Positions 6,618-38,550 of a DNA stretch of 64,000 nt are shown here, piece by piece (positions within the stretch are counted from its first letter, which is position 1; the number at the start of each line of letters is the position of its first letter). The notes beneath the pieces were generated by a model. The model did not search any database. It saw nothing but the letters and a program-made list of their open reading frames with translations, and was not told the DNA's origin. The translations under genes were made by a program, and so were the position numbers. This stretch comes from Brachybacterium tyrofermentans (GTDB lineage: Bacteria; Actinomycetota; Actinomycetes; Actinomycetales; Dermabacteraceae): assembly GCF_014897585.1 (NCBI RefSeq), contig NZ_JABUXW010000001.1, positions 186,001-250,000 on the forward strand, in the 5' to 3' direction.

Positions 6618-7577
6618 TCACCGTGGATCGGCGCCGTCGCGGCGCACCACGCGCCCGATGACGGCGGGATCCGCGCGGAAGTCGATGCGGGCGACCTGCC
6701 CGCCGACGATGGTGAAGTCGAACAGCACCATCGCCTGACCCCCGTGGTACCAGGCCGAGCCTGCGCGCCCGTCGATGCTGGCCGGCAGCGCGGCGTGGGC
6801 GGAACCGTTGAAGAAGCTCGCCACCTCGTCGCGCCCGTCGATCGCGGCCGGGGTGCCGGTCTCGATCGCCTGCTCGTCGCCGCGCACCACGGCGTCCGGC
6901 GCCAGAAGCTGCACGAGACGGGTGAAGTCACCCTCCCGGGCGGCGGCCATGAAGGCGTCGACCACCTCCCAGTCGGCGAGCGCGTCCTCTGCGGGGGGCT
7001 GGGTGACCTTGGCACGGGCGCGCGAGGCGAGCTTGCGGGCCGCCTGCGGCGTCGTGTCCAGGGCTGCGGCGATCGTGGTGAACTCGAAGCCGAAGCTGTC
7101 GTGCATCACGAAGGCGACGCGCTCGTTCGGGCTCAGCCGGTCCAGGACCAGCTGCAGCGCGATCCCGACGGTGTCGGCGAGCGCCACGTCCTCGGCAGGA
7201 TCCGGGGCGGACTCGGGCAGCTCGATCTCCTCCTCGGGCACCGGGGTGCGGCGGCGCAGGCGGTCCAGGCACAGCCGGGTGGTGACGGTGGTCAGCCAGG
7301 CGGGCAGGTTGTCGATGTCCTGGGCGGTGCGATCCAGCCGCAGCCACGCCTGCTGGACGATGTCCTGCGCCTCGTTCGCGTCGCCGATCACCCTGCTCGC
7401 GAGGGCGACCAGACGTGATCGCTCGTGCTCGAAGCGCTGCGCGAGCTCGTCGGAGCGGGCGCCGGCACCCGCCTGTGCGTTGCTGCCCGCTGCGTCGGCA
7501 GGTGCGCCGGAGTCCGTGTCGTCGCCGTTCTCGCCGCGGCGCCGGGCGTCCGCGGGCTCAGTCCTGTTCGGGTCCAT
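6618..7577 (-). CDS. ECF sigma factor with C-terminal SnoaL-like domain (SigJ/ECF41-like)
   Basis: A 319-residue RNA polymerase sigma factor. After a 45-residue low-complexity N-terminal extension come sigma region 2 (LVALASRVIGDANEAQDIVQQAWLRL) and region 4 (LDRLSPNERVAFVMHDSFGFEFTTIA). The C-terminal NTF2/SnoaL-like domain starts at FMAAAREGDFTRLVQLLAPDAVVRGD. In this class the C-terminal domain replaces a separate anti-sigma factor and modulates activity. The NPDKL-type C-terminal motif known for ECF41 is not evident (RADPAVIGRV is at that place). A GGAAGG Shine-Dalgarno supports the ATG at 7577. No anti-sigma gene is adjacent; regulated targets are unknown. Confidence 0.88.
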   Translation of the reverse strand: MDPNRTEPADARRRGENGDDTDSGAPADAAGSNAQAGAGARSDELAQRFEHERSRLVALASRVIGDANEAQDIVQQAWLRLDRTAQDIDNLPAWLTTVTTRLCLDRLRRRTPVPEEEIELPESAPDPAEDVALADTVGIALQLVLDRLSPNERVAFVMHDSFGFEFTTIAAALDTTPQAARKLASRARAKVTQPPAEDALADWEVVDAFMAAAREGDFTRLVQLLAPDAVVRGDEQAIETGTPAAIDGRDEVASFFNGSAHAALPASIDGRAGSAWYHGGQAMVLFDFTIVGGQVARIDFRADPAVIGRVVRRDGADPR

Positions 7578-7722
7578 GACCCCATCCTTCCGTGTGCGCC
7601 ACCGGCCGTGCCGCCGAAGGCTCCTGCTCCGTCGACGCGTCGGGGGCGACGAGTGTGACGGGCACCGGCCCGAGATCGGGCCGGTGCCCGTGGAGTCCGG
7701 GAAAGAAGGGGCGACGGCCCGA

Positions 7723-7765
7723 CAGCCCAGCAGCCCAGCAGCCCAGCAGCCCAGCAGCCCAGCAG
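7723..7765. repeat. 8-bp tandem repeat (CAGCCCAG, five copies)
   Basis: Five perfect head-to-tail copies of CAGCCCAG (7723-7762) plus a partial sixth lie in the 210-bp gap between the sigma factor start and the GH43 stop. It is a simple-sequence tract likely to vary in copy number by slippage. Confidence 0.9.
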
Positions 7766-7787
7766 AGCATCCCGGGCTAGCGCCGGA

Positions 7788-8804
7788 TCAGGGTCGGTAG
7801 TCGGTCCTGGGGCGCTGCGGGTTGCTGATCGAGGGACCCTCGATGCTCACGCCGCCGCCGTCGAAGCGCACCTTCGAGATCCAGATCTGGCGGCCGGGAT
7901 CCTGGCCGATGTGGTCGGGGTGCCATGCGTGGTAGACGTACCAGATGCCATCGACCGTGCGCACCGGCATGCCGTGCCCTGGCCCCGCGGCGACGTCGTT
8001 GGCGGAGAGCACGGGCTGGTCGGAGAGCTTCGTCCACGGTCCGTCGATCGCGTCGGCGACCGCCACACCCACTCCGTAGGTCTCGTTCCAGTACTCGCCG
8101 GCGGAGTAGAAGAGGTAGTAGCGGCCCTCGTGCGTGATGATCGCGGGCCCCTCGATCGTGTAGATCTCCCAGGCCTGGTCGCGCTCGAGGATGCGGGTGC
8201 GCTCACCCTCCAGCGAGAGTCCGTCGTCCGCGAGTCGCTGGGCGAACAGGAACGAATCCTGATCCGCGGCGTTGCCGTCGTTCTTCCACAGCAGCCACAG
8301 CGAGCCGCCCTCGTCCCGGAACGGGGAGGCGTCGATGCACCCGCCCTCCTCAGGGTTGGACAGCAGCGGCGCGGACGCCGAGTCGACGAAGGGTCCCTCG
8401 GGCCGTGCCGCCACGGCGACCCCGATCGCCTGCCGGTCCGTGGCCCGCTCCCAGGCGGTGTAGTACGCGTGGTAGCTGCCCTCCACCTCGATGACCTCCG
8501 GAGCCCAGTGCCTGCCGCTGTTCGCCCACGCGGCGATGACCGGCTGTCCGTCGCCCACGCGGCGCCAGTGCACGAGATCCGGGGACCTCAGCACCGGCAT
8601 GTTCCCGGCCGAGCCGGCCGTCGAGTACAGGTAATACCCCTGGTCGACGCGCAGGATGCCGGGGTCGGGCTGATTGGTGTCGATCACGGGGTTGGTGTAT
8701 CCGGACGCGGCACCGGCGGAGGGGAGGCCTGCCCCGACAGCGGTCACCGTGAGGGTTCCGGTGGCCAGGAGGGTGCGGCGGGAGAAGCGGGCGAGGGGCG
8801 TCAT
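7788..8804 (-). CDS. Tat-exported glycoside hydrolase family 43 enzyme
   Basis: A 338-residue secreted glycosidase. The chosen ATG at 8804 gives a twin-arginine signal peptide (FSRRTLLATG, then a hydrophobic stretch and an Ala-Gly-Ala cleavage region near residue 30); the frame is open further upstream but that part looks non-coding. The GH43 five-bladed propeller residues are visible: the catalytic-base Asp in NQPDPGIL, the pKa-modulating Asp in GGCIDASPF, and the general-acid Glu in YTIEGPA. GH43 enzymes act on arabinan, xylan or related beta-linked side chains; the exact substrate is not predictable. No sugar transporter or regulator is adjacent. Confidence 0.87.
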   Translation of the reverse strand: MTPLARFSRRTLLATGTLTVTAVGAGLPSAGAASGYTNPVIDTNQPDPGILRVDQGYYLYSTAGSAGNMPVLRSPDLVHWRRVGDGQPVIAAWANSGRHWAPEVIEVEGSYHAYYTAWERATDRQAIGVAVAARPEGPFVDSASAPLLSNPEEGGCIDASPFRDEGGSLWLLWKNDGNAADQDSFLFAQRLADDGLSLEGERTRILERDQAWEIYTIEGPAIITHEGRYYLFYSAGEYWNETYGVGVAVADAIDGPWTKLSDQPVLSANDVAAGPGHGMPVRTVDGIWYVYHAWHPDHIGQDPGRQIWISKVRFDGGGVSIEGPSISNPQRPRTDYRP

Positions 8805-9068
8805 CGTCGTCGTGATTTGTGGAGTTGCGGCCGTGCGGCGGTGCCCGGCCACCAGCATTCCTACGTGAGAATTCCTGCGGTGTCCAGGTTTCGCGGACGA
8901 TCCGGCCCCTCGAGAGCCCTCCACAGGGCCTGCGTCCGGCCCACCCCAGCCTTCGCCCCCGCCCCACACACGTACGGGGCTTATGCGTGGGACGTCCGCC
9001 CATATCGCATCGGCTCCACGAAGAAGTCCCGTACTCGAGTTGGATCCCGAGCCGACGGCAGGCTCACG

Positions 9069-10160
9069 TCAGATCAGCACGGGGTCCGGGATCGGCTCGT
9101 CGGCCGCGCGACCGACGGGCTCGAGCAGGCGCAGGCCCTCGCGTCGGCTGACCACCACGACGATCACGGCAGTGATGACCAGCAGGGCGACTGCCGCGGC
9201 GATGCCCCCGGCCAGGGCGGCGCCGGCGTGGGCCGGTCCGGCCTCGGTGCTCGCGAGCGCTGCGGCGGAGGTGCCGGGAGCGGCGACGGCCGCACCGAGC
9301 GCCGCCACCCCGGCTCCGGCGTCGCTCCCGGCGGTGAACGCGGAGACGACGAGCGCGATGCCCGTGGTGGTGGCGGTGAGCAGGATCGGGAGCTCGAGCC
9401 CGCCTGTCTTCCACGCGAGCACCGCGGCGGCGAGCGCGACCGCGAGGGCGGGGATCATCACCGCGGCGGTGGCCTCCCGGCCGATGCATGCGATCGCGGC
9501 GACGACGAGGACCCCGATCGCGGGGCTGCGCAGCCACGTGCCGACGGCCTGGAGCACGAGCCCCCGCAGCGCCAGCTCGAGGCCGAGGGCCTGCAGCGGG
9601 ACCAGGACCAGCACGAGCAGCACCACCAGGAGCAGCTGGAGGACCGACGCTCCCCCGCCGGCCGCAGAAGATCCGGCCCCGGCCGACGCACCGTCGGCCC
9701 CCGCTCCCGCCAGGCCCCCGGCGAGCGCCGCGGCCGCGACCACCACGAGGGCGGCGAGCACGGCGAGCAGGCCGGTCGAGCGCAGGAGTTCTCGCCGCAG
9801 CCGCGCAGCGACGGACCAGGTCGGGCCGAGCGGACGCCAGCCGCCGATCCTCACGCCGACCACTCCGGCGGGCCACCACAGGGCTCCCATCGCCAGGGCG
9901 ATGCCGACGTCCAGAGGGCTGGTGGGGTCGCCGCTGGTCACCCCGATCGCGACGTTCACGCCGGGGGCGAGGGCGAGCACGAGGATCGTGAGCACCAGCA
10001 GCACGGACGCCAGGACGACGTACGCGATGACGGCGGCGACGACGGTCAGCAGCGGCCGGCCCCACGCGGACCACGCCGGGCGCAGCGTCGCCAGCCGGTG
10101 ATAGGGCGTGGGCCGCGCATCGAGGTCGGGCGTGCCGCCGACCGGAGCGACGGCGCTCAT
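9069..10160 (-). CDS. CPBP-family membrane protein with degenerate protease site
   Basis: A 363-residue multi-spanning protein that aligns without gaps, from about residue 187 to 266, with the intact CPBP protease encoded at 12511-13581 (PLQ, GTWLR and LAWKTGGLE blocks coincide). The protease motif residues are mostly lost: the paired Glu motif reads LELALR (first Glu replaced by Leu, second Glu and Arg kept), the FxxxH histidine is Arg228, and HxxxN has become TxxxT. It is therefore probably not a functional CAAX-type protease. It has about eight hydrophobic segments and Ala/Gly-rich loops. Its ATG overlaps the stop of the amidotransferase gene by 4 nt, implying coupled translation. Confidence 0.75.
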   Translation of the reverse strand: MSAVAPVGGTPDLDARPTPYHRLATLRPAWSAWGRPLLTVVAAVIAYVVLASVLLVLTILVLALAPGVNVAIGVTSGDPTSPLDVGIALAMGALWWPAGVVGVRIGGWRPLGPTWSVAARLRRELLRSTGLLAVLAALVVVAAAALAGGLAGAGADGASAGAGSSAAGGGASVLQLLLVVLLVLVLVPLQALGLELALRGLVLQAVGTWLRSPAIGVLVVAAIACIGREATAAVMIPALAVALAAAVLAWKTGGLELPILLTATTTGIALVVSAFTAGSDAGAGVAALGAAVAAPGTSAAALASTEAGPAHAGAALAGGIAAAVALLVITAVIVVVVSRREGLRLLEPVGRAADEPIPDPVLI

Positions 10161-11119
10161 GCGGCGTGCTCCGCGGTGTCGTCGCGGTCAGCGGAGACGG
10201 CACCCGTCTCCGTGATCTGCCGGCGCCGGTCCTGCTGGGCGCGGACCTGCGCCGCATGCGCCTGGGAGGCCGCGGCCGACAGGCCGAGATCCTCGATGCT
10301 GAGCGCCTGGGCGAGCGGGCCGAAGGGATGCTCGCTGGTCAATGAGCCGTCAGCGGTGAGGTGCACGAGCTCGCCGGAGTCCAGGAGGCGCCAGGCGGGG
10401 TCGTCGTCCAGGGGCTCGCTCGCGATGACGACAGAGCTCGCGCCGCGCGGGTCCTCGCTGCGGGCGCGAACGGCGAGCGAGTCCGAGGACTGCTCGAAGC
10501 CGTCGCGCGGAGAATCCACGGCGGCGGGGCGCTCGAGGATCCACAGCTCATTGGTCGCCGGCAGACGCACCGCGATGAGCTCCTCCCCCTTCATGACCAG
10601 GACGTTCACGGAGTACACGGGGACATGGGCGGCGATCCAGCTCAGCGCGGCGGCCACCCCGTCGCGCAGATCGCCGCCGTGGGCGGCCACCTCGCCGGTG
10701 ATCAGCGCGGCCATCCACTCGCTGTCGGTGGAGCCCAGGACGTGGTGGGCGGCGCCGAGCTCCGCGACCCGCTGCCGCATCTCCTCGGTGACCTCCAGGA
10801 CCCCGTTGTGGGCGCTGATGATGCCGTCCTGCAGGAACGGATGGGTGTTCTCGTCGCAGTGCCCGGAGCCGGAGGAGAGTCGCAGGTGGGCGAGCATCGA
10901 ACGGGAGCGGAGCGTGGTCGCGAAGTCGGTGAACGCCTCGGACTCGTACGCGGCGACGGGGCGCTTGCGGATCTGCGGTCGCCCGTCCCTATCGACCCAC
11001 CCCAGCCCGGTGCCGTCGGCGTTGAACCGCGACTGGTTCAGCAGGGAGTAGGGCGCATCGAGCAGCCAGAGATCGGCGGTGACGGGGTGGTCGGAATGAA
11101 GAGCGAAGAGTCGGCACAT
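10157..11119 (-). CDS. Class II glutamine amidotransferase (YafJ/EgtC-like)
   Basis: A 320-residue Ntn-type amidotransferase. Starting at the ATG at 11119 places Cys2 (MCRLFALHS) as the catalytic N-terminal nucleophile after Met removal, which decides the start. Other family signatures are NADGTGLGW (about 33-41), AHLR (77-80), NTHPF (91-95) and ISAHNGVL (about 101-108). The closest known groups are YafJ-type proteins and EgtC of ergothioneine synthesis, but no other egt gene is present, so the substrate is unknown. The C-terminal 40 residues are an Ala/Gln/Arg-rich tail. It is co-transcribed with the degenerate CPBP protein. Confidence 0.85.
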   Translation of the reverse strand: MCRLFALHSDHPVTADLWLLDAPYSLLNQSRFNADGTGLGWVDRDGRPQIRKRPVAAYESEAFTDFATTLRSRSMLAHLRLSSGSGHCDENTHPFLQDGIISAHNGVLEVTEEMRQRVAELGAAHHVLGSTDSEWMAALITGEVAAHGGDLRDGVAAALSWIAAHVPVYSVNVLVMKGEELIAVRLPATNELWILERPAAVDSPRDGFEQSSDSLAVRARSEDPRGASSVVIASEPLDDDPAWRLLDSGELVHLTADGSLTSEHPFGPLAQALSIEDLGLSAAASQAHAAQVRAQQDRRRQITETGAVSADRDDTAEHAA

Positions 11120-11335
11120 GGCCTGTCCACTGTAGAACTCCCTGGCTGGGGACGCAGTGAGGGCGACCACGAGAACGGCGTGCCACCCGCCTCGTCCGCC
11201 TCGCGGAGGTTCCCGCACTCACCTCTTCCCCGGTCAGGAGCATTCGTCCGTCCGAGCCATTCCGTCCGTCGGCCCCCGGTGGCACGATGACCCGCACGAG
11301 GGATCGCACCGCGGTCCCGACCCTGAGGAGGAACC

Positions 11336-11758
11336 ATGCCCCGTTCCACGCCCTACATCACGTTCCCCGGCAACGCCGCCGAGGCCATGGCGTATTACAA
11401 GGAGGTCTTCGGCGGCACCCTCGACGTCATGACCTACGGCGACAACCCCATGGAGGGCATGCCCTTCACTCCTCCGCCGGAATCCGTCGCCCACGCCCAG
11501 CTGGAGGGCGGCCTGCTCACCCTTGCCGGGGGTGACGACATCGAGGAGGACCCGCAGCCGCTGGACGGCTCGGCCTACTCCCTGATGGTGATGCCAGAGT
11601 CGGTGGCGGGCGCCGAGGCCCTCATCTCTACGCTCACCTCGACCGGGGCGAGCGTCGAGATGCCGTTCGAGCTGGCTCCCTGGGGTGATCACTACGGGCA
11701 GGTCAAGGACCGCTTCGGCGTGCTCTGGCAGATCGACGTGCCCGGTACGCAGGGCTGA
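11336..11758 (+). CDS. VOC superfamily protein, PhnB-like
   Basis: A 140-residue glyoxalase/bleomycin-resistance-fold protein of the PhnB-like type. It shows two beta-alpha-beta-beta-beta modules: PYITFPGNAAEAMAYYKEVFGG, then the C-terminal module with ELAPWGDHYGQVKDRFGVLWQI, the classic PhnB ending. Members are often uncharacterised metal-dependent enzymes or binding proteins. A GAGGAGGAA Shine-Dalgarno lies just before the ATG. It is not obviously in an operon with its neighbours. Confidence 0.87.
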   Translation: MPRSTPYITFPGNAAEAMAYYKEVFGGTLDVMTYGDNPMEGMPFTPPPESVAHAQLEGGLLTLAGGDDIEEDPQPLDGSAYSLMVMPESVAGAEALISTLTSTGASVEMPFELAPWGDHYGQVKDRFGVLWQIDVPGTQG

Positions 11759-11860
11759 CGTTCTCGCAGCGCCTCCGGCTGGCAGGCGGCGGCGCGGACG
11801 GCGGGCGCGAAACCGGTCACGTCCGGGAAGACCTCGCCGACCCTCCGCGTTGCCTCCGCC

Positions 11861-12610
11861 ATGAGCTCTTCTCTCCATCGCACCCTCGGGATCCTCGGGG
11901 CCGGCAAGGTCGGCACTGTGCTGGCCCGCCTCTCCGTCGCCGCCGGGCACGACGTGCTGATCTCGGGCTCCGGTGATCCCGAGAAGATCGAGCTGATCAC
12001 CCAGATCCTCGCCCCCGGGGCGCAGGCGGTGACCAGCCGGGAGGCCGCCGAGCGGGCCGACCTGGTGATCCTCGCGCTGCCGCTGGGCAAGCACGCTTCG
12101 ATCCCGGCCGACGCTCTGGCCGGCAAGATCGTCGTCGATGCCATGAACTACTGGTGGGAGACCGACGGGCACCTCGAGCAGTTCTCCCACGCAGGGGCGT
12201 CGACCAGCGAGTTCGTGCAGCAGCAGCTGCCTGGCGTCACCGTCGTGAAGGCCTTCAACCACATGGGGTACCACGACCTCGAGGACCTCGCCCGCCGCGT
12301 CGCCCATAAAGATCCGAGTCCGCGCGCCGCCATCGCGATCGCCGGACCCGCCCCGGCGGCGGGCGTCGTCGCCGAGCTGGTCGACGAACTGGGCTTCGAC
12401 CCGGTGGTGATCGGCTCCCTCGCCGAGGGGGTGCGTCTGCAGCCTTTCGCGGAGGCCTTCGGTGCGGGCGTCGATGCTGACGCGCTGCGGGAGATCGTGG
12501 ACCGCTTCCCTCAGACCGACAGGGGACGCGAGGTGCTCGCGGCGCTCGGCGAGGGCGCCTCCACAGGCGCCGACGGGCCGTCCGACAAGCTGACCGATGA
12601 GAGGGTCTGA
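11861..12610 (+). CDS. NAD(P)-binding F420-reductase-like Rossmann protein
   Basis: A 249-residue oxidoreductase-like protein. The N-terminal Rossmann motif is [15 protein letters not shown] and the later signature [15 protein letters not shown] is typical of NADPH-dependent F420 reductase-like proteins (pfam F420_oxidored). It is homologous to the C-terminal third of the FAD fusion protein at 26613-29189 (VVKALNHIGYHEVED there). No F420 biosynthesis gene is in the window, so the cofactor partner is unknown. Its last 100 bp overlap antisense with the 3' end of the CPBP gene on the other strand. Confidence 0.8.
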
Positions 12611-13581
12611 ACCCGGCCGCGCTGCGGCTCCCACAGCCCCAGGCCCGCTCGCCTGGAGTACCACCACCAGATCCCGGCACTCAGCCCGAGCATCGGCACC
12701 AGCGCGAGGGCGAGGCCCAGGAAGCCCACCTCGCCCTGTTCGGTGAATCCGGGGATCAGCGGGGAGATCGCGAACAGGGTCCAGTTGTTGGCGGTGTGCA
12801 GCAGGATCGGGATCTCGAGGCCGCCTGTCTTCCAGGCCAGCAGGCCCATCACGATCGCGAAGAGGGCGATGTCGATCTGGCCCACCCAGTTGTAGCCGTG
12901 GCCCAGCACGAACAGCGGCACGGGCACGAGGATCCCGATCAGCGGCCAGCGCAGCCAGGTGCCGAAGACCTGCATCGGCAGCGCCCGGAAGGCGAACTCC
13001 TCACCCGCGCACTGCAGCGGGGCGAGCACGAGCACGACCAGCCAGGCCAGGATCACGCCCGGTCCGAACTCGGGCACCACGATCGCCTCGCGCTCCAGGA
13101 CCAGGTTCAGCACCGTGTTGATCAGCAGATAGACGGGAACCACGATGAGCGCCGCGCGTCCCATCAGCGCCCAGCGGAAACGCCCCAGCACAGAGAGCGC
13201 GATCCCGGCACGGCCGTAGCCCGCCAGCGATCCCACCAGCACCGCGGGGACCAGCAGCGCGAGCATGCCCAGGCCCAGGAACTGATCGACGGGATTCAAC
13301 GGGTCCATCAGGGAGGGACTGGTGGCGGCCGCCGGCCAGATCTCGCCGAGGATCATCAACGGTGTCATGACCTGCAGGTTCATGACGATCCACACGAATC
13401 CCGCCACGGCGACCGCGACCAGCGGGCGCCACCAGTAGCCGCGATGCGGGATCGCTCGGGCGGCGCGATGGTAGGGCTCTGTCGGCGACGGGGACACGGG
13501 CAGGGACGGGGATGACAGAGCCGTCGTCGGCGCCGACTCGGCATGGAGCGGAGGCTGGGGAAGGGGGTGGTGCGAGGTCAT
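12511..13581 (-). CDS. CPBP-family intramembrane metalloprotease
   Basis: A 356-residue membrane protease of the CAAX/Rce1-like CPBP family. All motifs are intact: EExxxR at Glu194-Glu195-Arg199 (GEEFAFR), FxxxH at Phe224-His228, and HxxxN at His262-Asn266. Eight or so transmembrane helices run from about residue 50 to 320; both ends are low-complexity and cytoplasmic-looking. In actinobacteria such proteins may process membrane proteins or peptides; the target is unknown. The C-terminal 33 codons overlap antisense with the convergent Rossmann-protein gene. A degenerate paralog is at 9069-10160. Confidence 0.88.
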
Positions 13582-33525: not shown

Positions 33526-34520
33526 CCACCACTGCCTCCCACCTCGGCGCCCACAGCGCCGACACCCCGAGCGCCGATACCTTGAGCGCCCAGGAACAGC
33601 GCCCGGGCCTGCCGGTCCTCGCCGTGGACCTCGTCAGCGATCCCGCCCTGCTGGGCTCGTTCGCCGCTCTGGCCCACGATCTCGAGCGCGCGGGCATCGG
33701 CGCCCTCACGATCAGCGACGGCGGGCTCCACCCGATCCATGTCGCCTCCTACCTGGCTCCGCTCACCGACGCCATCGCGCTGCTGCCGCGCACCGATGCC
33801 GTCTACGTGGAGCCGTTCCACCTGGCCACGCAGCTGATGAGCCTGGACCACATCAGCCACGGTCGTGCCGGGTGGCTGCTCACGGCGGAGACCGATCCGA
33901 CGGTGGCCGCGACCGTCGGCCGCACCACGCTGGGCCTGGAGGACACGGCGCGTGAGGCGGCCGACGTGCTCGAGGCCTCGCGACTGGTGTGGGACTCCTG
34001 GGCTGAGGACGCCGTGGTGCGCGATACCGCATCGGGCGTGTACGTGGACGCCGCGCGCCTGCAGTACGCCGATTTCGAGGGCGAGTCCTTCGCGGTGCGC
34101 GGGCCGGCGATCACCCCGCGCTCCCCGCAGGGCCTGCTCCCGGTGCTGATCGCCGATGCGGACCGCGCCGCCGTCGGCGGGCGCGTCGCGACCGAGCTGG
34201 CCGATGGCCGCGTGCTCGACCTCGACGTGTCCACGGGCGCCCGCCCCGATGCCGTCGTCGACACTGTCGAGCGGGCGCTGGCCGAGGATGCCGGTCCCGC
34301 CGTGCGCCTGGTGCGCCTGGTGGGTCTGGACCTGGAGGCCGATCCGCTGGGCACCGTGGCCGAGCTCTCCGCCGCCCTGCGGGAGCGCGGGCTGCTCGCC
34401 GCGGCCCCGTCGGCCGGGCAGAGCCTGCGTGACCAGCTGGGCCTGCCCGTCGCGGCCCGTGCCGCCGATCCTGCGCGTCGCTCCGACCGCGCCCGTCTGA
34501 ACTCCGAGGACCTCGCATGA
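33522..34520 (+). CDS. LLM-class flavin-dependent oxidoreductase (short form)
   Basis: A 332-residue member of the bacterial luciferase-like monooxygenase superfamily. After a 28-residue Ala/Ser/Thr-rich N terminus it shows LPVLAVDLVSDPALLGSFAALAHDLERAGIGALTISDGG and the flavin-barrel signature VEPFHLATQLMSLDHISHGRAGWLLTAE. It is shorter than most members and lacks part of the C-terminal insertion region. It is followed by a second, full-length monooxygenase with a 4-nt overlap, so both probably act on the same imported compound or its product. Confidence 0.82.
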   Translation: MTTTASHLGAHSADTPSADTLSAQEQRPGLPVLAVDLVSDPALLGSFAALAHDLERAGIGALTISDGGLHPIHVASYLAPLTDAIALLPRTDAVYVEPFHLATQLMSLDHISHGRAGWLLTAETDPTVAATVGRTTLGLEDTAREAADVLEASRLVWDSWAEDAVVRDTASGVYVDAARLQYADFEGESFAVRGPAITPRSPQGLLPVLIADADRAAVGGRVATELADGRVLDLDVSTGARPDAVVDTVERALAEDAGPAVRLVRLVGLDLEADPLGTVAELSAALRERGLLAAAPSAGQSLRDQLGLPVAARAADPARRSDRARLNSEDLA

Positions 34521-35896
34521 GCACCACCGCCCCGCTCCGCCCCGCCGCCGACACCGAGCTGTCCGCCGAGGCCGCCGCCCTGGCCACCGGCCCCGCCGAG
34601 CACCCGATCCATCCTGCGCACACCCCCACCGGGCAGCTGTCCTTCGGGGCGTTCTTCCAGGGCGTGAACTCCTCGACCATCTGGCGACTGCCCCAGAGCG
34701 GCGAGCAGGTGGCCTGGGAGTCCTTCGAGGCGCTGGTCCGCACCGCCGAGCGTGGGAAGTTCGCGGCGTTCTTCCTGGGTGAGGGGCTGCGGCTGCGCGA
34801 GCACCGCGGCGTGCCCCTGGAGTTCGACGTGGCCGGGCGTCCCGATGCGCAGGCCCTGCTCGCGGCGCTGGCGGCGGTCACGGACCAGATCGGTCTCGTC
34901 GCCACCCAGAACACGACCTACAACGACCCCGTGGACCTCGCCCGTCGGTTCCAGACCCTCGATCTGCTCTCGGGCGGCCGGGCCGGCTGGAACGTCGTGA
35001 CCACGGACAACGCCTGGACCGGGGAGAACTTCCGCCGCGGCGGCTATCTCGACCACGAGGACCGGTACGTGCACGCGGAGGCGTTCGTGGAGGTCGCCCA
35101 GCAGTTCTGGCGCGGCGAGCAGATCGAGCACGACGGTGCGCACTACTCGGTGCGCGCCCAGGGCGATCTGCCCCGCTCCGCCCAGGGCAGCCCGGTGCTG
35201 TTCCAGGCCGGGGCCTCCCCCGCCGGGCAGGACTTCGCCGCCCGCACGGCGGACGTCATCTTCTCCCCGCACGGCACCCTCGAGGCGGCGGTCGACTTCC
35301 GCCGAAGCATTGTCGAGCGCACCGTGGCCGCCGGTCGCGACGCGAGCAGTGTGAAGATCCTGCCGGGCGCGGAGGTGGTGCTCGCGCCCACCGAGAAGGA
35401 GGCCGACGAGAAGATCCGCTGGGTGCGCGATCTGCAGGTGGGCCCCGAGCAGGCGATCGCCCTGCTCGAGCAGTACTGGGGCCGGGACCTGTCGGACTTC
35501 GATCCCGAGGGGCCTCTTCCCGACGTCGAACCGGAGGTGGTCGAGTCCGGCGTGACCCGCGGGGCCGGCTTCCAGTTCGCCAAGGCCCAGGAGCTCACGC
35601 AGCAGTGGCGCGAGGAAGCCGCGGAGAAGGGTCAGTCGATCCTCGAGTTCGCCCGGGTCAAGGCCGGATCTCGACGCGGCACCTTCAGCGGCAGCTACGA
35701 CGCGGTCGCCGATCGTCTCGTGGAGTTCGCGCGGCTCGGTGCGATCGACGGTCTGAACATCACCCCGTGGCTGATCCCCTCGGGCCTGGACGACATCGTG
35801 GACCACCTCATCCCCCGCCTGCAGGAACGCGGCGTGTACCCGACCGACTACGCCGGCTCGACGCTGCGGGAGAACCTGGGGCTGCCGCCGGTCTGA
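34517..35896 (+). CDS. NtaA/SnaA/DmoA-type FMN-dependent monooxygenase
   Basis: A 459-residue flavin-dependent monooxygenase of the family that includes nitrilotriacetate monooxygenase NtaA, dimethylsulfide monooxygenase DmoA and B. subtilis CmoJ. Visible features: TLDLLSGGRAGWNVVTTDNAWTGENFRR, RYVHAEAFVEVAQQFW, FQAGASPAGQDFAARTADVIFS and GSYDAVADRLVEFARLGAIDGLNI. Members cleave C-N or C-S bonds using FMNH2 supplied by a reductase; no dedicated reductase is obvious, and the divergent FAD protein is a candidate. It is the last gene of the operon; a 19-bp inverted repeat follows. Confidence 0.9.
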   Translation: MSTTAPLRPAADTELSAEAAALATGPAEHPIHPAHTPTGQLSFGAFFQGVNSSTIWRLPQSGEQVAWESFEALVRTAERGKFAAFFLGEGLRLREHRGVPLEFDVAGRPDAQALLAALAAVTDQIGLVATQNTTYNDPVDLARRFQTLDLLSGGRAGWNVVTTDNAWTGENFRRGGYLDHEDRYVHAEAFVEVAQQFWRGEQIEHDGAHYSVRAQGDLPRSAQGSPVLFQAGASPAGQDFAARTADVIFSPHGTLEAAVDFRRSIVERTVAAGRDASSVKILPGAEVVLAPTEKEADEKIRWVRDLQVGPEQAIALLEQYWGRDLSDFDPEGPLPDVEPEVVESGVTRGAGFQFAKAQELTQQWREEAAEKGQSILEFARVKAGSRRGTFSGSYDAVADRLVEFARLGAIDGLNITPWLIPSGLDDIVDHLIPRLQERGVYPTDYAGSTLRENLGLPPV

Positions 35897-35969
35897 GTCG
35901 CCGCGTGCGCAGGGTAGGCGTAGGCAAGCGAGGGCTCCGTGGGCAGCTCCAGCCTTCGGGCTAGCCCTG

Positions 35970-36021
35970 TCTGTCCGCCTGCGACTCAGGAGGGATCGAC
36001 CATGAGTCGCAGGCGGACAGA
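35970..36021. repeat. Perfect 19-bp inverted repeat (14-nt spacer)
   Basis: Left arm TCTGTCCGCCTGCGACTCA (35970-35988) and right arm TGAGTCGCAGGCGGACAGA (36003-36021) are exact complements. The 301-bp gap (35897-36197) has no other gene I can support. The hairpin could end the monooxygenase operon, but the loop also holds a perfect GGAGG Shine-Dalgarno 8 nt before an ATG at 36002. It could equally be a mobile-element or insertion scar. No T-rich tail follows. Confidence 0.85.
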
Positions 36022-36214
36022 ACGCGCGCCGGATGCGCCCAAGCTCGCTACCGCGCATCCTGCAGCACAACGAACCGATCACGATTCCCCATCCCTCGCC
36101 CGCGTTTCGCCCTTTCGCACAACGTTTGTCGGCGCTGCGGAGCACACTCAAGAAGATGAGGCGACGCCGAGCCGCCCCCGAGCTTCCGGAGTACAGAATG
36201 ACGAACGATATTGA
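36002..36214 (+). CDS. Possible short ORF starting in the inverted-repeat hairpin
   Basis: The ATG at 36002 follows GGAGG (35989-35993) at ideal spacing and opens a 70-codon frame (MSRRRTERAPDAPK start), ending at 36214 and overlapping the start of the next gene by 17 bp. The product is Arg/Ser/Pro/Ala-rich without recognisable domains. It could be a leader ORF translationally coupled to the 439-residue gene, or merely a chance frame. Only the spacing and overlap support it. Confidence 0.3.
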   Translation: MSRRRTERAPDAPKLATAHPAAQRTDHDSPSLARVSPFRTTFVGAAEHTQEDEATPSRPRASGVQNDERY

Positions 36215-37517
36215 CGTGATCAGCGACGAAGATGGACTCGCCGTGCTGGGCGCACCCGGAGACGACGAAGATGGACTCGCCGTGCTGGGCGCACCCGGAG
36301 ACGTCGACGCGTTTCTGACGTCGTTCGGCTTCGAGTCGACCGAGCTCGAGCTCCACCGACTCGGCCCGTCGTACAAGGCCTCAGCGGGCGTGCTCAACGC
36401 CGGTGCGGGAATCATGGCGAACTCCGGCCGCTGGATGAAGCTCACGTCGGAATCGTTCGCCGCATCGAAGGCTCTGCCGCTGGTCAAGAACGCGGCCACA
36501 GGGAACTTCCACGCCACTCTTCGCGCCTCCGGGGGCCAGTTCGCCAAGAATATGCAGTTCGTCGCGGGGCCGACGGCCCTGCTCAACCCTGCGGTACTCG
36601 CCGGAGCTTCGGCGATCATGGCGCAGATGGCCATGCAGGAGGCGATCGAGGAAGTCGGCGAGTACCTCGCAGTCATCGACGAGAAGGTCGACGACATCCT
36701 GCGTGCGCAGAAGGACTCGGTGCTCGCCGACATGATCGGCGTGGACCTCATGGTCGAGGAGGCAATGACCGTCCGCGACGAGGTCGGGCGAGTTTCGGAA
36801 GTGACCTGGTCCAAGATTCAGACCTCAGGGCTGACGATCGCGACCACCGAGGCCTATGCGCTGCGGCAGATCAACGGACAAGCGGAGAAGGTCGAGAAGG
36901 CGAGCGTCTCCGAGCTGGCCGCGACGGCGAAGGTCGCCGAGACCACAGTGCGCGAGTGGCTCGCTGTACTCGCGCGATGCGTCCAGCTGCAGGATGCGCT
37001 GTCCGTCCTCGAGCTCGACCGCGTACTCGACAGCTCGCCGGGCGACCTCGACCGGCACCGTCTTGGTCTCCGTGCGGCACGGGCGAAGCGTCTCGCGTTG
37101 ATCCACCGCACCACGGAAGAGCTGCTCGATCGCATGAACACGACCATTCGACGGGCAAACACGAAGGTCCTGCTGTCCCCTCGACCGGCTCGCGCCGCAG
37201 TCAACTCCAGCAACCTCGTCGTCGGCCGTGTGCTGGACTTCCAGACTGCCCTGGAGATCGAGGACGGTCACGACTCTGCTGAGGCGAAGCGCTGGCGGGC
37301 GGCCGCCGGGGAGATGCGCGACAAGGTCGTCAAGACCGGGGCGGACAGTGCTGGCGCAGCATTCCAGTTCGGCGGCGACACTGCAGGCCGTGTCCGTTCC
37401 GGGGCCGGCAGGCTGTCGAATGGCGCGCGCGCGTTCCGCGAAGCAGTCCGTCACGAGGGGACCAGACCGGCCGATGAGGCGTCAGGCGAGCAGGCAACGG
37501 AGGAGAAGACTCAGTAG
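36198..37517 (+). CDS. Orphan 439-residue helical protein of unknown function
   Basis: I do not recognise a characterised family. I start it at the ATG at 36198, which has GGAG 6 nt upstream; the frame is open to 36033. Residues about 10-35 contain a perfect 13-residue duplication (DEDGLAVLGAPGD twice). The middle is largely alpha-helical, with a hydrophobic stretch (AGPTALLNPAVLAGASAIMAQ, about 124-144) followed by amphipathic helices (EEVGEYLAVIDEKVDDILRAQKDSVL) and a helical C-terminal half with a charged tail. Two lines I counted are 63-65 % G+C, below the neighbours. It separates the monooxygenase operon from a LysR regulator and may be acquired DNA. Similar uncharacterised proteins occur in other Micrococcales, as far as I recall. 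Confidence 0.7.
   Translation: MTNDIDVISDEDGLAVLGAPGDDEDGLAVLGAPGDVDAFLTSFGFESTELELHRLGPSYKASAGVLNAGAGIMANSGRWMKLTSESFAASKALPLVKNAATGNFHATLRASGGQFAKNMQFVAGPTALLNPAVLAGASAIMAQMAMQEAIEEVGEYLAVIDEKVDDILRAQKDSVLADMIGVDLMVEEAMTVRDEVGRVSEVTWSKIQTSGLTIATTEAYALRQINGQAEKVEKASVSELAATAKVAETTVREWLAVLARCVQLQDALSVLELDRVLDSSPGDLDRHRLGLRAARAKRLALIHRTTEELLDRMNTTIRRANTKVLLSPRPARAAVNSSNLVVGRVLDFQTALEIEDGHDSAEAKRWRAAAGEMRDKVVKTGADSAGAAFQFGGDTAGRVRSGAGRLSNGARAFREAVRHEGTRPADEASGEQATEEKTQ
36225..36302. repeat. Perfect 39-bp tandem duplication inside the orphan gene
   Basis: Two identical 39-bp units (36225-36263 and 36264-36302) encode DEDGLAVLGAPGD twice in a row. The absence of a single mismatch, even at third positions, indicates a recent in-frame duplication. 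Confidence 0.95.
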
Positions 37518-37632
37518 TTCGACCTGCCGCCTGTGCAGCCTGCACGCAACGGGAATATCCGGGGCACCGCAGGCCTGAGCGGTGTGCCTCAACCCATAAG
37601 CAGGGCTTGCTACCCGGGCCTACCATGGAGGG

Positions 37633-38550
37633 ATGGATCCTCGTCGCCTGCTCATCTTCCGCACCGTCGTGCGCAACGGCTCGATCGGTGCCGGCGCGCG
37701 CGAGCTGGGCTGGACCCAGCCCGCCGTCTCCCAGCACCTCGCGGCGCTCGAGAAGGAGGTGGGCACCCAGCTGCTGCTGCGCTCCTCCTCCGGGATCACG
37801 CCCACCGAGGCCGGCGGCAGGCTCGCCGCGCACGCCGAGGCGATCGCGGCCCAGCTGCACGCCGCCGAGGAGGAGCTCGCGGACATCACGGCGCTGCGCC
37901 GCGGCACCGTGAAGTTCGGGACGTTCCCGTCGGCCGCCGCCGTGCTGCTTCCGCCGGTGCTGGCGCACCTGGCGGCGACCGCCCCGGATCTCGAGGTCAC
38001 CTTCTCCGAGCTGGAGCCGCCGGACGCGATCCCGGCCGTGCGCGAGGGCGCTCTCGACCTCGCCCTGGTGTTCCGCTACCCGTGCAGCGACATCGACGAC
38101 GAGGGCACCCTGGAGTGGACCCCGCTCCTGGAGGACCGCGTGATGGCCGTGCTGCCGCGCGAGCATCCCCGAGCCGAGGATCCGGACCTGACCCTGGCGG
38201 ACCTGGCCGAGGATCCGTGGATCGCGGGCTGCGAACGCTGCCGGGCGAACCTGCTCAGCAGCGCCCGTCGGGCGGGCTTCGTGCCGAAGATCCGCCACTC
38301 CACCGACGATTCGATCGTGGTGCAACGCCTGGTCGTGCACGGCGGCGGCGTCGCGCTGATGCCGGAGACCGCGCTCGAGGCCGCTCCCCCGGCCGACGAC
38401 GTCGTGGTGCGCCACCTGCCGGACCTCGATGACCGCATGATCGGCCTGATCAACCGTCGCGGGGCCCTGTCGATCCCCGCCGTCGGCGCCCTGCGCGATG
38501 CGCTCGTGGCCGAGACCAACACCCGGCTGTCGACCGCCGCGATGATCTGA
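37633..38550 (+). CDS. LysR-family transcription regulator
   Basis: A 305-residue LysR-type regulator. The winged helix-turn-helix is at the N terminus (RTVVRNGSIGAGARELGWTQPAVSQHLAALEKEVGTQLLLR) and the effector-binding domain follows (about 90-295). A CxxC pair (GCERCRANLL, about 200) lies in the effector domain, a motif seen in several actinobacterial LysRs. LysR regulators often control sulfur-scavenging operons (YtlI/AscR in B. subtilis), so it may regulate the operon upstream despite the intervening orphan gene. That link is inference. It starts at the ATG at 37633. Confidence 0.9.
   Translation: MDPRRLLIFRTVVRNGSIGAGARELGWTQPAVSQHLAALEKEVGTQLLLRSSSGITPTEAGGRLAAHAEAIAAQLHAAEEELADITALRRGTVKFGTFPSAAAVLLPPVLAHLAATAPDLEVTFSELEPPDAIPAVREGALDLALVFRYPCSDIDDEGTLEWTPLLEDRVMAVLPREHPRAEDPDLTLADLAEDPWIAGCERCRANLLSSARRAGFVPKIRHSTDDSIVVQRLVVHGGGVALMPETALEAAPPADDVVVRHLPDLDDRMIGLINRRGALSIPAVGALRDALVAETNTRLSTAAMI

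Follow-up and report, generated by a model that had tools for sequence, protein, structure and literature searches.

The family gene and its composition

The locus raises two questions: what a protein of 439 residues does between a monooxygenase operon and a LysR-type regulator in Brachybacterium tyrofermentans, and how its gene came to lie there. The window is the whole stretch of DNA analysed, 64,000 nucleotides of contig NZ_JABUXW010000001.1 (positions 186,001 to 250,000), and all coordinates below refer to it unless another locus is named. The gene occupies 36198..37517 on the plus strand and, as judged from its open reading frame, its homologs and dN/dS, encodes a 439-aa member of an uncharacterised actinobacterial family. 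The reading frame stays open in the 5' direction as far as 36006. Homologs share an N-terminal M-x-x-E/D-I motif that aligns with 36198, and GGAG at 36188..36191 (plus strand), the likely ribosome-binding site, lies 6 nt 5' of that codon and is kept in the G058 and G004 sequences of the alignment; 36198 is therefore the likely start. The leader region (36051..36190, plus strand) is 72% identical to that of the same-slot gene in G058, and four leaders were aligned.

The earlier note on this DNA described the gene as lower in G+C than its neighbours. This was confirmed among the 58 window genes of at least 300 nt found by our own gene caller: G+C is 0.660 (third lowest; mean 0.712, sd 0.027) and GC3, at 0.811, is the lowest of all (mean 0.914, sd 0.027). 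Three other copies found in the same slot have a G+C of 0.666-0.670 in host loci of 0.707-0.732. An exact 39-bp tandem duplication (13 residues) at 36224..36301 on the plus strand, which the earlier note did not list, is private to the window copy: it is absent from 24 other aligned members. A pattern search of 63 rows found the N-terminal box twice only in the window copy (20 rows start at the matched stretch and may be missing their N-terminus).

No significant match to the protein was found in Pfam, NCBIfam, PADLOC, PHROGs or PDB sequences, in agreement with the earlier remark that it has no recognised domain. Its best Pfam match (E 0.02) is far under the Pfam cut-off. Against PADLOC-DB 2.0.0 the protein itself matched 0 families up to E 10, and the best value among 29 family members was an E of 0.017 for one member. 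Matches to HTH_65 (E 0.003 or worse), DUF4143 and the like are scattered over single members and were dismissed as chance, as was an orbivirus-family match (4e-4) found in one member.

The protein had also been called an orphan, which is incorrect in the strict sense since it has dozens of homologs. The gene is single-copy in its own genome and, with that genome included in every count, family members are found in 5 of the 38 genomes of the genus; in wider samples the counts are 57 of 396 for the order (E 1e-10), 34 of 394 for the class (E 1e-5) and 12 of 396 for the phylum (by profile). A search of 72,556 plasmid records matched 4 of them, and a distant relative as the query added 5 more; all nine are actinobacterial. 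Five scans of viral contigs found no relative, and a phage collection gave one candidate match, on a 7.7-kb faecal scaffold and covering 23% of the query. Six protein accessions of plasmid homologs are mentioned nowhere in the literature searched, and the family may be described elsewhere.

Residues G31, P131, K163, G197, W204, R295 and W366 are invariant in 29 aligned members. The dN/dS of 0.16-0.25 against three same-slot homologs indicates that the protein is under purifying selection. A 662-aa call in G184 looked like a fusion, but a start at 6840 yields a 407-aa protein of family size, with the longer reading as a possible alternative. In a Streptomyces-like genome (L140, G215), a short stretch near 6984 is >90% identical to relatives while the rest of the frame is unmatched; it looks like a decayed family copy.

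Defence genes near relatives

The neighbourhoods of relatives were searched in two sets. The first set comprises 39 homolog loci outside the slot (35 genomes and 4 plasmids), 6 of which belong to a distant subfamily, with at most 3 genes per side taken from our own gene caller; 209 of 211 references were used. At E 1e-10, PADLOC matches amounted to 105 families in 105 proteins and 227 in 104 (25 families listed for each), against 13 families in 120 proteins from 20 control regions located 300 kb away in 19 of the same genomes, with the caveats that the family counts are redundant and do not give a rate per gene, and that the controls are positional and not matched for other sporadic genes, which may also occupy islands. 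In the control, mad3 matched 5 proteins (lowest E 6e-56); the other matches were to mad8, to several DrmC models (one protein each, lowest E 4e-15) and to single further models. None of the 120 control proteins matched a model for restriction, BREX or CRISPR. Near the relatives, the PADLOC classes are restriction-modification, BREX/Pgl, Hma, Dpd/DISARM-like, type IV restriction and CRISPR.

In addition, 20 neighbour proteins, picked for their large size at 17 of the 39 loci, were scanned singly. A named defence gene was found at 10 of the 39 loci (L107, L115, L116, L122, L127, L128, L137, L138, L141, L144) and a weak RecD-like match at L123. The large neighbours tested at 6 of the 17 loci (L104, L105, L108, L113, L120, L132) had no PADLOC match. 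Singly confirmed were PglX (E 0) together with PglW, a Dpd-like helicase (E 0), HmaA (E 0), type IV restriction (E 0), Orf5 (8e-79), Cas3e (4.5e-105), type I restriction-like helicases at three loci (about 1e-26) and a methylase on a plasmid.

Five loci have the family gene after defence genes on the same strand; two of them, L137 and L138, belong to the distant subfamily (23-29% identity). In L115, L141 and L138 a methylase-motif protein and a restriction-like helicase precede the family gene on one strand (in L115 and L141 the specificity subunit was not called). In L116 the order is helicase, methylase, and then the family gene 74 bp on. In L137 PglW and PglX are followed on one strand by the distant relative, with 1.2 kb between PglX and the chosen start. 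The 669-aa methylases were named by motif and by similarity within the studied loci. PglX/PglW were confirmed beside one of the 17 singly scanned loci, which does not fit a BREX/Pgl component, and when neighbours were clustered no family recurred at more than 3 of 29 non-slot loci, that is, there was no constant partner.

The second set of 20 further loci came from the order search and agrees with the first: its 110 neighbour proteins matched 200 PADLOC families. These include the restriction (3 proteins), methylase (3) and specificity (2) subunits of type I systems, Orf5 (2) and DpdE; mad8 (5) and mad3 (4) are present as well, as in the control. A tblastn library of 15 defence proteins taken from the first set matched 4 of the 20 new loci; of the control regions it matched 1 of the 20 at a distance of 30 kb and none of the 20 at 300 kb (4/20 against 1/40 control regions, one-sided p 0.038). 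The 11 of 39 first-set loci that it matched are not countable because the library came from those loci. At the gene's own locus, the library matched nothing in the window.

The earlier suggestion that this might be a defence gene is thus supported, as guilt by association, by the relatives' neighbourhoods when compared with the control. From these defence-rich neighbourhoods and a patchy, horizontally moving presence (5 of 38 genus genomes, and conflicting trees as detailed below), the family gene is a candidate anti-phage accessory gene, to which we assign a rough probability of 0.55. The proposed role is drawn from the company that relatives keep and not from the gene's own site. The plasmid copies and the purifying selection also speak for it; the variable partners, the library result at the own locus, the loci with no PADLOC match and the weak structure models speak against it. 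The solitary, mobile family would most likely protect the cell from phages or other foreign DNA, often riding beside restriction or BREX-type systems. For comparison, a share of 0.59% of actinobacterial genomes is devoted to known anti-phage defence according to the available part of PMC10482375. If the proposal is true, this would be a fairly common actinobacterial defence gene, given its presence in 57 of 396 order genomes, that is missing from the defence library used, and an example of such a gene that has settled outside defence islands, at a metabolic locus.

It is possible, though we consider it rather unlikely, that the family belongs to plasmids or integrated elements and has another role (maintenance, entry exclusion, anti-restriction or that of a passenger), with defence neighbours acquired via shared mobile DNA. 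Among the plasmid copies, one lies between MobF relaxase and ArdC/TraM-type genes, one adjoins DUF262, NYN and N-6 methylase genes, and one has genes for an EcoRI-type methylase, DUF262 and Fic at a distance of 3-6 kb, with a NACHT NTPase further off. Rhodococcus relatives adjoin transposition genes, an HNH endonuclease or mostly unnamed genes. The relatives found on conjugative plasmids and beside transposition genes speak for such a role, and so does the lack of a fixed defence partner. Against it, restriction or Pgl genes repeatedly stand immediately before members from different branches, on the same strand, only 9 of 72,556 plasmid records matched with the two queries, and the gene has had a long stay at a chromosomal slot under purifying selection.

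Several single loci deserve mention. On the Rhodococcus plasmid pLP1 (L186, 4027-10659) a distant member adjoins TnsA-like, TniQ and ATP-binding genes, a Tn7-like set. In L199 a member (6989-8224) shares its strand with a 1686-aa frame (8241-13301) 16 bp from it, and there is Orf5/DUF262-like similarity close by; this is possibly a multi-gene system. In L200 and L201 genes of 1034 and 417 aa adjoin the member in the same order in both genomes.

The anti-phage reading invites comparison with two published groups. The available part of PMC12839542 describes accessory and back-up effectors carried alongside BREX and restriction-type systems; here, similarly, one relative follows PglX and others follow type I restriction-like genes. 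The effectors named there are nucleases (HNH, PD-(D/E)XK, HEPN and others), whereas no nuclease domain, or any other, is recognised in the present family. The solitary defence genes found from their genome position by a defence-island method in the available part of PMC13092281 are likewise sporadic, small and, in some hosts, set in defence-rich surroundings. The present protein differs from them in having no PADLOC match.

Predicted structure and proposed mechanism

The model of the whole protein has a mean pLDDT of 54 and that of residues 120-420 reaches 69. Both models are weak; in each, a mixed N-terminal part is followed by very long helices. The earlier note had listed a hydrophobic stretch and long amphipathic helices. 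The stretch is present (about 121-146) and long helices are predicted with modest confidence; compared with shuffled sequences, these are not clearly more amphipathic (z 0.4 to 1.4). The best 19-residue segment has a hydropathy of 1.41, a value that lends little to the idea of a membrane-associated effector; values above 1.6 occur in 4 of 25 family members.

The structural comparison proposed earlier was run with these weak models, and the likeness to helical bundles that it returned is within the generic range (best Foldseek E in the PDB search 0.019). Foldseek against PDB and viral models and VIA-align gave no match distinct from generic helical bundles. With VIA-align the whole model reached Z values of up to 13.3 to vinculin or catenin bundles (rmsd of the top row 19.9) and the core model a Z of 12.2 to MukF (rmsd 3.0 over 144 residues), where a Z under about 13 may reflect a common helical-bundle arrangement. 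The sequence-profile search of solved chains found no match. JukB (Jumbo phage killer B, 9jht_B) was row 17 for the core model, with a Z of 10.6 and an rmsd of 3.3 over 159 residues, which is within the helical-bundle background, and the sequence profile found no such chain; the likeness is at most a lead. The ClyA-type alpha-helical pore formers (6mrt_A) similarly have long helices and a moderately hydrophobic segment, but the match is not significant (Foldseek E 0.32, TM-score 0.15-0.20).

The vinculin/catenin and MukF alignments are also what a housekeeping or structural helical protein, a vinculin/talin-like or MukF-like bundle with no role in conflict, would give. We regard this as improbable: Z values under about 13 are common for helical bundles and the top row aligns with an rmsd of 19.9, no solved chain matches in sequence, and the presence of the gene is patchy.

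Within the anti-phage reading, one specific mechanism is preferred, although it is doubtful. A small N-terminal module (box DGxGLAVxG) would hold the long helical bundle, including the partly hydrophobic helix (about 121-146), in a latent state. Infection would free the bundle, which would then act as a back-up effector, arresting the cell or damaging the membrane once the primary system fails. As a tentative generalisation, slightly less doubtful, the family may be a new one of single-gene actinobacterial anti-phage effectors that are kept latent by the N-terminal box, strike when the adjoining restriction, BREX or CRISPR system is overcome, and also spread alone into metabolic loci.

The slot between the monooxygenase and LysR genes

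The position of the gene between a monooxygenase operon and a LysR gene is as earlier described. Upstream lies a luciferase-like monooxygenase (34517..35896, plus strand; Pfam PF00296, 5.1e-39), the last gene of the operon, and downstream a LysR-type regulator (37633..38550, plus strand; PF03466 6.2e-40, PF00126 4.4e-19) that is present in 37 of 38 genus genomes. The LysR regions were fetched from 35 of the 36 other LysR-bearing genomes and 19 of them have the monooxygenase upstream, which together with the own locus makes 20 intervals. The slot itself spans 35897..37632. In the empty-site comparison proposed in the earlier note, 3 intervals hold the family gene, 13 have only 70-413 bp between the operon and LysR, and 4 contain other genes. 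A search of the other monooxygenase-LysR spacers for remnants of the gene gave nothing significant. The interval looks like a variable gene slot, and the gene is a mobile accessory gene in it. The predominance of empty intervals, together with the conflict between gene and LysR trees, supports the idea of accessory DNA. The genus thus supplies natural pairs in which the same slot is filled or empty.

A fourth slot copy (G004) is near LysR, with no monooxygenase operon in the 8 kb fetched, and the fifth genus copy (G002) is located elsewhere in its genome and on another branch of the tree. The other slot genes appear by eye to be RidA-like (L069), AraC-like plus VOC-like (L075 and L084) and VOC-like alone (L080), and in L082 a VOC-like gene shares the slot with the family gene; these names, and that of the G027 succinate dehydrogenase below, are readings of the sequences and not library results. 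The right edge of the slot, the stretch 5' of LysR (37574..37631, plus strand), is alike in most relatives with or without the gene (blastn of spacers). It contains ATAAGC..GCTTG, is kept whatever the slot content, and may be the regulator's own site.

That the gene is a functional partner of the operon or a LysR target is very improbable: it is on the same strand and between the two in 3 of 20 intervals, and beside LysR in a fourth genome, but 13 of 20 intervals lack it despite having both operon and LysR, so that it is not conserved with the operon, the G004 copy has no such operon in the fetched 8 kb, and homologs outside the genus slot are found in unrelated settings.

The inverted repeat

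A 19-bp inverted repeat was earlier reported immediately upstream of the gene. It exists (35970..36021; arms 35970-35988 and 36003-36021, 19 of 19 pairs, 14 nt spacer), but "immediately" is loose: it starts 73 nt past the monooxygenase stop and ends 176 nt short of the start codon. Its predicted RNA fold has an energy of -49.3 kcal/mol (z -5.3), and 0 of 200 shuffles were equally good. The terminator scan, which permits 3-8 nt loops and requires a T-run, did not list it.

The repeat had been taken as a sign of insertion, and this is not supported. A pattern search for the arm found no second exact match in the own genome. Of the 38 genus genomes, three match the query 35897-36190 (own, G058 and G027). 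G058 has the same-slot gene and matches in the leader only, without the inverted repeat, and in G027 (L148, near 1500-1553) a similar palindrome lies 3' of another gene, read as succinate dehydrogenase iron-sulfur subunit. For these reasons the repeat is read not as the trace of an insertion but as a putative operon-end hairpin that follows the monooxygenase gene.

Movement between species

In a protein tree of 15 rows the four slot copies form one clade (support 100/100) with a G000+G058 group nested inside it (100/100). On the LysR tree the slot copies are scattered, with 4 changes needed. LysR data reject G000+G058 (p-AU 5e-10) and reject all four slot copies as a clade (p-AU 1e-56). Gene data reject G058+G004 (p-AU 2e-6), a pair that the LysR tree places within a larger clade and not as sisters. 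Because the trees conflict this strongly, either the gene or LysR moved between species.

The simplest reading of the trees is one slot entry followed by exchange between species, and transfer of LysR itself is a possible alternative source of the conflict. Under one slot entry, a single lineage of the family would have entered the monooxygenase-LysR slot in Brachybacterium and later spread into it between species, probably by recombination through the conserved flanks. At synonymous sites the gene has diverged by 0.66-0.99, no less than the flanking monooxygenase and LysR genes (0.38-0.56), so nothing suggests recent exchange. The gene's weaker codon bias may contribute to its higher divergence.
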